DNA of 64,000 nucleotides, from NCBI GenBank assembly GCA_017428325.1, contig JAFRRA010000001.1, positions 104,145 to 168,144 on the forward strand. The letters are read 5' to 3'. Position numbers and translations under genes: made by a program. Below, piece after piece: positions 32,663 through 36,087 of the stretch. The notes beneath the pieces were generated by a model that saw only the letters and a list, made by a program, of their open reading frames with translations, was not told the DNA's origin and ran no database searches. Origin of the DNA: Bacteroidales bacterium (GTDB taxonomy: Bacteria > Bacteroidota > Bacteroidia > Bacteroidales > UBA932). Numbering within the stretch: position 1 is the first letter of the stretch; each line of letters opens with the position of its first letter.

Positions 32663-34219
32663 ATGGCAAATCCTCTGAAAAAACTTGCGGGCGAAACCGC
32701 CATATACGGGCTTAGCACGATACTGGCCAGAATCATCAACTTCTTCTTCGTGCCTATTTACACGAGGATACTGACGACTGACGGTTACGGCTCGTATGCG
32801 GAGATAATGAGCTACATAGCGGTATTCCAGGTAGTCCTTGTGCTGGGTCTGGAAACCGGATGCTTCAAGTTCGCCTCAAAGGGAACAACCACTGAGGACG
32901 GGACAGACAGCGGGGCGGATACCCAAAGGCATCATACCGTTTTTTCAACCGCCCTCTCCACCGTCACCACCATCTCCGTCTTCTTCTTTGCGCTCTGCTG
33001 GCTCTTCTCGGGAAACATTTCCTCCGCGATGGGATATGAGGGGTGCTCCAAGATGATAATCTATGTAGGCGGAATCCTGGCTCTGGATGCCATAACGGCC
33101 ATATTGTTCGCAAGGCTGAGATACCAGCAGAAAGCCCTCAAGTTCGCTCTCTTCAAATCCATAAAGATTGTCAGCGAGCTGGGATTCAACCTGCTGCTGT
33201 TCTTTGCCGTACCGGCTCTGATGAAGGCTCACCCGGGCAATTTCCTGACAGCGTTCATTCCGGAACAGATACATTTCTCATACATCATCTTTGCGGTATT
33301 CCTCAGCTGCATCCTCTGCTTCCTGCTCTTCATTCCTGACCTTCTGAACATCAAGTTCAAGTTCGACGGAAAGCTCTGGAAGAAGATGATGCTCTACTCC
33401 CTGCCGCTTATGATTGCAAACCTTCCGGGTATCATCAACGAGAGCGCGGACAGGTTCCTGTTCCGCTTCCTGGTTGATGACGGCATAACTGGAGACGGAT
33501 GGAAGGCGGACCTTGGAGTCTATCAGGCGGCTATCAAGCTGGCCGTAATAATGAACCTCTTCATACAGATGTTCCGCTATGCCGCGGAGCCGTTCTTCTT
33601 TTCGAGGTATAAGGAAAAAGGTTCGAATGAACTATATGCCAAGGTGATGGAATATTTCGTGGCATTCTGCATGCTGATATTCCTGGGTATTGTTTTCTAC
33701 ATGGACATAATCGGCCTGATTCTCGGCAAGGATTTCCGCAGCGCCCTGGGTACCGTGCCGGTAATGCTGATAGCATATATGATCCTTGGAATGCTGTTCA
33801 ACGTATCCATGTGGTACAAGCTCAGTGGCCAGACTAAATACGCCATTGTCATTACACTGCTCGGATTGGGAGTAACAATTGTAGGCAACCTGATTTTCAT
33901 GCCGATGTTCTCTTACTGGGCTTCCGTATGGGTTCACCTGGCAAGCTGTCTGGCGATGCTTCTGCTGAGCGCATATCTCGGGCAGAAATACTACCCTATC
34001 CCATACCGATGGAAACAGATTCTCTCATACATAGCCGTGGGAGTCGCCCTGTATTTTGTTGCCGTCGGCGCTCAGTTTGCCCTGGAAAAGATCACGGGCA
34101 GAACCGCTGACCTGCAGAATTCAGGTATGCTTATTGCCAAACTTGCCTTTAATACCGTACTTCTCGGAGTCTTCCTGGTATTCCTGAAGAAAAAGACGCA
34201 CATACATTTATCGCGATGA
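32663..34219 (+). CDS. Oligosaccharide flippase (MOP superfamily)
   Basis: 518 aa with about 14 transmembrane helices. Starts with [20 protein letters not shown], typical of Wzx-like polysaccharide flippases. It would move lipid-linked sugar units across the inner membrane; a MurJ-like role is not excluded given the murF gene directly downstream. Starts 1 bp after the patatin stop and overlaps the next start by 4 nt (ATGA), so translation is coupled. Confidence 0.85.
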
Positions 34220-36087
34220 TAGTAAAGATAGTAAACCAGTCTCCCTATCCCCTGCCGAAATATGCCACAAGCCTTTCGGCCGGAATGGACCTTAACGCAA
34301 ACATTGAAACCCCTATCGAACTCCACTCCCTGGAGAGAACCATAGTGCCGACCGGCCTGTTTATCGAGCTGACGCAAGGCTATGAGGCACAGATCCGTCC
34401 GAGAAGCGGTCTGGCTGCAAAACACGGCATCACCGTAGCCAACGCTCCCGGCACAATAGACGCCGATTATCGCGGAGAAATAAAGGTCATACTCGTAAAC
34501 CTTTCAAAGGAAACATTCACAATCAAGCCGGGAGAAAGAATCGCCCAGATGGTAATTGCAAAATATTCCCAGGTCCAGTGGCAGCAGGTTGAAAAGCTTT
34601 CAGAGACCCTTCGCGGAGAAGGAGGATTCGGATCCACCGGCCTCGGAGTCAAGGCCAACAACATTTCCGCTTCCAAGATCTGCTCTAAAGACGGAAAGCC
34701 GGACATCTACAAGCTTTACACACTGTATCAGAAGACCACCGGCCTTTGCACCGATACCCGCAAGATTCAGAAGGGATGCCTGTTCCTGGCACTTAAGGGA
34801 GAAAACTTCGACGGTAACGACTTCCTTCTCCAGGCATTGGAAAAGGGTGCCGCATATGTAATCTCCGACAACAAGGAGAAGGCAAAACAGGCAAAGAAGC
34901 AGTTCCCGAAAAAAGTCATTATCGTGGACAATTCCCTCAAGACACTTCAGCAACTTGCTAAGCATCACAGGCTGCAGTTCAAGATTCCGGTAATCGGACT
35001 TACCGGCACCAACGGAAAGACCACCACGAAGGAACTCATAAACGCAGTCCTCTCCACAAGATACAAGGTTGTTGCCACAGAAGGCAACCTCAACAACGAC
35101 ATCGGCGTTCCGCTGACTCTCCTCCGCATAGACAAGGACACGGAAGTTGCAGTTGTGGAAATGGGAGCCTCCCATCCGCATGACATCGCAACGCTGGTAG
35201 CTCTGGTCTGCCCATCCTTCGGGCTTATCACCAGCATCGGCAAGGCTCATCTCCAGGGCTTCGGCTCACTGGAAGGCGTAATGAAAGCCAAGGGGGAACT
35301 CTATGACAACCTGCAGGAGCACAAGAAGATAGCGTTTGTAAACACAGACAATCCCCTGCTTAGGGAAATGGCGGAAAAGCGTCCAGATATGCAGATTGTA
35401 CCTTACGGCCTTACCAGCAACTGCGCCCGACTGCTTCCAAACACGGACAAGGATCCTTTCCTCAAGCTCGAAATCGCAGACCCATCCGGAAGCAAGGGCG
35501 GAAAGATGATCAAAATCAAGACCAACCTGATCGGAAACTATAACAGCGACAATGTGCTGGCGGCAATAAGCATAGGCACTTATTTCGCAGTTCCTACATC
35601 GGATGCCGTAAAGGCAGTTTCTTCATACGAGCCGTCCAACAACCGTTCGCAGATGACGAAGACAAGGCACAACATCCTGATCAAGGACACCTATAATGCC
35701 AACCCTACCAGTATGAAGGCCTCCTTGGAGAGTTTCCAGAACCTGGCCCTCTCAAGCCGCAAATTCAAGAAAGTCCTGCTTCTCGGCGATATGAGGGAGT
35801 TGGGAGAAGACTCACAGAAAGAACACCGCAACATCCTGGACCAGGCCCTGAAGATGCAGACGGAAAAAGTCCTGCTTGTGGGAGAAGAATTTGCCAAAGC
35901 CTACAAGGAGCTATTCTCCAAGAAATCTTCCGGCATAAAAGCAGCCAAGGACAAAACCGAAGTCCTTTTGTTCCAGGATACTGCAGCCCTTTCAGCATAT
36001 CTTGAAAAATATCCTCTGAAAGACAAGACAATACTCATAAAAGGCTCCCACTCTATAGGACTTGAAAAGACATTCCCTCTCCTGTAA
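34216..36087 (+). CDS. dUTPase-MurF fusion protein
   Basis: 623 aa in one uninterrupted frame. Residues 1-143 are a full trimeric dUTPase with all five motifs: AGMDLNA (22-28), PRSGLA (62-67), [10 protein letters not shown] (79-88), ERIAQMV (107-113) and [10 protein letters not shown] (133-142). A linker of about 17 residues leads to MurF (about 161-623), with [10 protein letters not shown], the P-loop [11 protein letters not shown] (263-273), the Glu/Asn-rich central site, [10 protein letters not shown], and a C-terminal ligase domain with [10 protein letters not shown]. The first part hydrolyses dUTP; the second adds D-Ala-D-Ala to UDP-MurNAc-tripeptide in the cytosol. There is no ATG near the MurF start, so one polypeptide is expected. 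dut and murF are normally separate genes. Confidence 0.9.

Follow-up and report, generated by a model that had tools for sequence, protein, structure and literature searches.

A single open reading frame in a 64,000-nucleotide stretch of DNA (the window) seems to encode both a dUTPase and the wall enzyme MurF. This raises the questions of whether the two are truly joined, how the join arose, and what it means for the cell. dUTPase keeps uracil out of DNA, MurF builds cell-wall subunits, and both are essential enzymes. The window lies within contig 6 of a 1.95 Mb draft genome in seven contigs (completeness, 89%).

The fused gene and its two domains

The frame runs from the ATG at 34216 to the TAA ending at 36087 on the forward strand and encodes 623 amino acids plus the stop. 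All of its Pfam matches exceed their cut-offs: dUTPase at residues 12-142, Mur_ligase at 175-251, Mur_ligase_M at 263-452, and Mur_ligase_C at 477-612. The first half also matches PRK00601, dUTP diphosphatase (203 bits against a cut-off of 103; residues 8-142), and the second half matches the NCBIfam murF model TIGR01143 at residues 179-620, over profile positions 1-415 of 418. With 378.4 bits, this match clears the cut-off of 288.6, and the assignment to MurF is specific. All five dUTPase motifs occur in order in the one dUTPase domain of the protein, and the ATP loop and NANPTSM region of the MurF half align with solved MurF proteins. The features of the locus are as follows; the names of motifs I-V are those we presume from general knowledge, and the motif alignment took in 16 of the 19 complete fused proteins described below.

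34216..36087, + strand: fused dut-murF gene, 623 aa; no stop at the join in 20 further genomes either
34216..34641, + strand: dUTPase domain, residues 1-142; PF00692 at 12-142 and PRK00601 at 8-142, over cut-off
34276..34293, + strand: dUTPase motif I (S21-L26); S21, A22, G23, and D25 invariant in 16 fused proteins
34396..34416, + strand: dUTPase motif II (R61-A67); invariant in 16 fused proteins
34450..34479, + strand: dUTPase motif III (G79-E88); invariant in 16 fused proteins
34531..34557, + strand: dUTPase motif IV (G106-I114); G106, E107, R108, A110, Q111, M112, and V113 invariant in 16 fused proteins
34612..34641, + strand: dUTPase motif V, the C-terminal arm (R133-G142); all residues but E135 invariant in 16 fused proteins
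34642..34701, + strand: linker, residues 143-162; no indel in 19 complete fused genes
34702..36084, + strand: MurF domain, residues 163-623; TIGR01143 at 179-620, best PDB fold matches are MurF
34999..35028, + strand: MurF ATP-binding loop, residues 262-271, from alignment to solved MurF sequences
32663..34219, + strand: upstream polysaccharide flippase-like gene, overlapping the start of the fused gene by 4 bases
36089..37261, + strand: downstream putative esterase gene, its ATG one base past the stop of the fused gene

Altogether, the sequence analysis confirms that two predicted complete enzymes, a dUTPase and MurF, are encoded as one in-frame fusion, which is a new domain pairing. The original prediction, of a dUTPase with all five motifs fused in frame to a full-length MurF, is thus borne out, with both halves passing curated cut-offs. 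Its linker of 17 residues agrees with the 20 residues given here (143-162) within the choice of domain edges.

Elsewhere in the window, on the reverse strand (45888-48961), the end of a sigma-54 gene (47516-48961) shares 4 bases with the amidohydrolase-like frame that comes next (45888-47519).

Distribution and origin of the fusion

We determined the fusion status of 39 genomes of the genus, a group of uncultured gut bacteria that we take to be Candidatus Egerieousia. The two genes are fused in 21 genomes and separate in 17, and one genome (G025) shows neither gene. Nineteen of the fused genomes carry a complete frame; in the other two (G003 and G033), the gene is cut by a contig end and is open across the join. 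Among the 17 with separate genes, 12 were verified in sequence and five (G022, G015, G016, G030, and G010) were judged from the match table; one of the latter, G030, is taken to be Candidatus Egerieousia excrementavium. Separate dut and murF in every close relative would have spoken against the fusion, but 21 of 39 genus genomes have it. In a MurF tree of 53 rows, built by a quick method without bootstrap and with one row (G033) only 15% filled, the 21 fused rows form one clade that requires one change (SH-aLRT 99). Among named records, fused loci occur in two metagenome-assembled genomes, Bacteroidales bacterium Tb.RUG.340 and RGIG7798 (water buffalo reticulum; L043 and L044).

The fused gene seems to be the usual source of both enzymes where it occurs, as judged by sole-copy counts that rest on drafts, mostly incomplete and many under 90% complete. 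Of the 39 genus genomes, 38 have a dUTPase domain and 37 have exactly one; Dut is not unique in G027 because a second, diverged dUTPase is present there (42% identity over residues 46-142; L183, G027:C22:30500-34500, match at 1879-2166). MurF was seen, either intact or in fragments, in all but one of the 39 genomes: it exceeds the cut-off in 36, is broken or cut in G035 and G033, and is missing from G025. We looked for a redundant second MurF and found no genus genome with a second match over the murF cut-off, among the matches listed. When the genome of the window was searched with the fused protein at E 0.001, the sole other match (26%, residues 175-508) was one that we read as MurE from its position in a wall-gene cluster.

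Beyond the genus, the fusion gives way to neighboring genes. Our family sample comprised 299 genomes (39 of the genus and 260 others) drawn from a larger group, of which 283 matched at the threshold. Within the matches listed, none of the 260 other genomes has a stop-free join of the two domains; in at least 58 of them, as read from the match table, the two domains share a reading frame but are parted by one or more stops. At the joined-level threshold, five of 393 genomes in the order sample were retained (the window's own, three with internal stops, and one with MurF only) and one of 395 in the phylum sample, again the window's own. A wide spread in Bacteroidales is therefore rejected, since neither sample holds a stop-free join except the window's own, and by sequence the fusion does not characterise Bacteroidales at large but is confined, as far as these samples reach, to one clade within one genus.

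Two further candidates for a wider or foreign source were rejected. G272 was considered as a second fusion outside the genus, as its MurF match lies in a 597-aa frame. However, G272, G262, and G226 alike have dut as a gene of its own, in a frame different from that of murF and ending 12-18 bases ahead of the MurF match; the stretch from G057, inspected alongside, has a 432-aa MurF frame but lacks dut. A viral source was likewise considered, but the 80 viral-contig loci kept of 422 match at most residues 1-175 and none matches the whole query.

The arrangement in relatives indicates how the fusion may have arisen. Of 591 loci on named contigs, 80 were kept; both genes lie in the stretch in 38 of these (two fused and 36 separate), and just one gene does in the other 42. 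In 32 of the 36 separate loci, fewer than 100 bases lie between the dut stop and the MurF match. Wider spacings also occur: in six of the 12 sequence-checked separate-gene genus members (L021, L023-L025, L027, and L028), dut and murF are 0.9 kb apart, with what is seemingly a gene bearing a 4Fe-4S motif at its start between them. Because dut and murF of relatives are usually neighbors less than 100 bases apart, the ancestral arrangement in the family was likely the two genes side by side at close spacing, and the fusion most likely came from loss of the stop of dut, most simply as one event. As relatives have the adjoining two-gene arrangement, such an origin would be mechanically ordinary.

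Constraint, structure, and a second wall-gene fusion

To describe the constraint on the fused gene, we computed pN/pS ratios, which are rough. Among ten close fused species, the ratio is 0.06 for the dUTPase, 0.17 for the linker, and 0.15 for MurF, a degree of conservation in the linker similar to that of MurF; in one trio, the values are 0.00, 0.00, and 0.04, respectively. For the full set of 19 complete genes, whose synonymous sites are close to saturated, they are 0.13, 0.29, and 0.23, so that the linker is somewhat less constrained than MurF. The 20-residue linker is nonetheless fixed in length, with no indel in any complete copy (19 of 19). In three sets of close fused genes, the ratio is 0.05-0.06 for the dUTPase and 0.07-0.15 for MurF, and three groups of separate-gene relatives gave 0.05-0.12 and 0.16-0.23. 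Since the fused values lie within or below the range of the separate-gene relatives, neither domain appears relaxed by fusion. As estimated from these sequences, purifying selection is shown on both domains and on the linker.

An AlphaFold2 monomer model, made from an alignment of 29 rows (three fused, seven neighboring pairs read through the stop, and 19 dUTPase only), gives both domains with good confidence (mean pLDDT, 84.2; pTM, 0.69). The best PDB matches by Foldseek are MurF structures, with a TM-score of 0.81 by target length. Residues 134-153, which cover the greater part of motif V and half of the linker, its first, fall below a pLDDT of 50, and the position of the linker is not confident. 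All-beta dUTPases (PF00692), the relatives of this domain, form trimers in which motif V closes over the active site of a neighbor. The present domain resembles them in its five ordered motifs and single dUTPase domain and differs in that its C-terminal arm runs into a 481-residue extension. The disorder of motif V in the monomer model fits its role in the trimer. By analogy, we infer that the dUTPase part trimerises, which would bring three MurF domains together.

The genome of the window carries a second fusion of wall enzymes, in which MurG and MurC, each scoring above its cut-off, share one frame within the wall-gene cluster:

L133:5988-8540 (G000 contig 1, 61987-64539), - strand: MurG-MurC fusion, 850 residues

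Across the genus, MurG-MurC is fused in 20 of 39 genomes (cut at contig ends in G013 and G023), separate in G282 and 17 others, and not assignable in G001. The two are separate in all 17 genomes with separate dut and murF; 11 of these were read in sequence and six from the match table, one of which (G030) shows MurC only. Unlike that of Dut-MurF, the linker of MurG-MurC varies in length. A strict co-occurrence of the two fusions is ruled out by G282 (L182, G282:C61), in which Dut-MurF is fused and MurG and MurC are separate. Outside the genus, MurG-MurC is also fused in G084, G116, G082, and G174, i.e., in at least four among 199 family genomes including genus members, at a strict search threshold (1e-220) that makes further cases possible. 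Because of these four genomes, the MurG-MurC fusion probably arose more than once, as judged by its distribution.

What the fused protein may do

We consider it highly probable, on the sequence evidence, that the locus is a stop-loss fusion kept in one clade and made as a single bifunctional dUTPase-MurF protein. Specifically, in an ancestor with dut and murF tightly spaced, a single loss of the stop codon of dut would have created one long gene, which would then have been retained in one clade of the genus. Its translation would yield one bifunctional protein of about 68 kDa, in which we infer both enzyme activities to be present: the dUTPase part, with its intact motifs, is predicted to convert dUTP to dUMP, and the MurF part is predicted from sequence to add D-Ala-D-Ala to UDP-MurNAc-tripeptide. 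In the dUTPase trimer, a flexible link just behind the catalytic C-terminal arm would tether each of the three MurF domains. The chief effect would be a fixed 1:1 dosage and a trimeric MurF; substrate channelling is not expected because the two reactions have no intermediate in common. All observations can be accounted for by fixed dosage or simple irreversibility, and a regulatory link between dUTPase and MurF is at most a possibility.

Known fusions of MurF help to place this one. In other families of the order, 21 of 24 genomes match at 25-39% within a frame of 769-860 aa; judged from length and general knowledge, this is presumably MurF-alanine racemase. In that protein (PRK11930), a MurF domain is likewise fused to a second enzyme, but MurF is N-terminal and the partner supplies D-Ala. 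We rejected such a fusion in the genus, where 37 of 39 genomes have an alanine racemase match and it occupies a frame of its own, 290-435 aa long. According to the available part of PMC6420597, pairs of mur genes are often fused, some of them not catalysing consecutive steps. The Bordetella MurE-MurF protein (PDB 8f5d) described there is a close likeness, in that MurF is the C-terminal half of a bifunctional polypeptide from adjoining genes and the molecule is elongated and flexible; its partner, however, performs the preceding step of the same pathway, whereas here the partner is a nucleotide-pool enzyme outside it. The same part of that source covers MurG-MurC, MurC-Ddl, MurB-MurC, and MraY-MurG, which are alike in fusing essential wall enzymes, some non-consecutive, and unlike Dut-MurF in that both partners act in peptidoglycan synthesis. 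Like Mur-ligase fusion proteins, our locus joins two complete enzymes in a frame that relatives keep, and it departs from them in that its N-terminal half is a dUTPase. That part of PMC6420597 makes no mention of dUTPase, and our full-text literature search, with most subscription journals outside its scope, found no description of a dUTPase-MurF fusion, in keeping with the earlier statement that no established description was known.

One alternative is that the fusion is a selected scaffold, in which the dUTPase trimer serves as an oligomerisation platform for MurF in a peptidoglycan-precursor complex, beside the MurG-MurC fusion. The fixed linker length in all 19 complete copies is consistent with it, as is the overlap of the two fusions: 19 of the 20 genus genomes with MurG-MurC have Dut-MurF, and the remaining one is G025, which has MurG-MurC though its draft shows no dut or murF. 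Mur enzymes are also known to associate, and Bordetella MurG oligomers bind MurE-MurF (available part of PMC6420597). This support is offset by the Dut-MurF genome with separate MurG and MurC, by the recurrence of MurG-MurC in four family genomes outside the genus, untied to Dut-MurF, and by the same source, in whose available part coupling of MurE to MurF brings no apparent gain in catalytic efficiency. We therefore regard a selected scaffold as unlikely. A bolder version, in which the trimeric dUTPase was recruited as the core of a wall-precursor complex, with three MurF arms per trimer beside MurG-MurC and with MurF concentration, and perhaps activity, following the nucleotide pool during replication, strikes us as a long shot.

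Another reading is that the fused protein is cut, or MurF restarted internally, to leave separate enzymes in the cell. The gene of the window argues against a restart: after residue 142, the first in-frame ATG, GTG, or TTG is a TTG at 208, within the MurF N-terminal domain, which upholds the earlier observation of no internal ATG near the join. Some relatives do have GTG, TTG, or ATG codons near the join, but no start position between 143 and 175 is common to all 19 complete genes. The segment of very low model confidence (residues 134-153) could be a cleavage site freeing the domains; conservation of the linker speaks against this, and we hold separate enzymes to be improbable.

Still less probable is a nucleotide gate, in which dUTP binding or the uracil-nucleotide state would alter MurF via the dUTPase arm and couple wall synthesis to replication. 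The linker begins directly after motif V and is under selection, as such a gate might require, but the disordered link in the model suggests weak mechanical coupling. Finally, although the genome of the window is a draft in seven contigs, the probability of an assembly or sequencing artefact is negligible and a base-calling error at the join is excluded in practice, because the reading frame continues unbroken over the join in 20 further genomes, including G034, which is assembled as a single contig, and the linker is free of indels in 19 complete copies.

A stop-loss fusion made as one protein would join two essential enzymes of unrelated pathways, kept through a whole clade, so that two essential activities would hang on one product. 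The fusion may make the wall enzyme MurF work in threes. As such, the genus offers a natural setting in which to ask whether MurF acts as an oligomer and whether fused adjoining genes carry function or only drift to fixation, and the recurrent MurG-MurC fusions make the family suited to the study of why wall-synthesis genes fuse.
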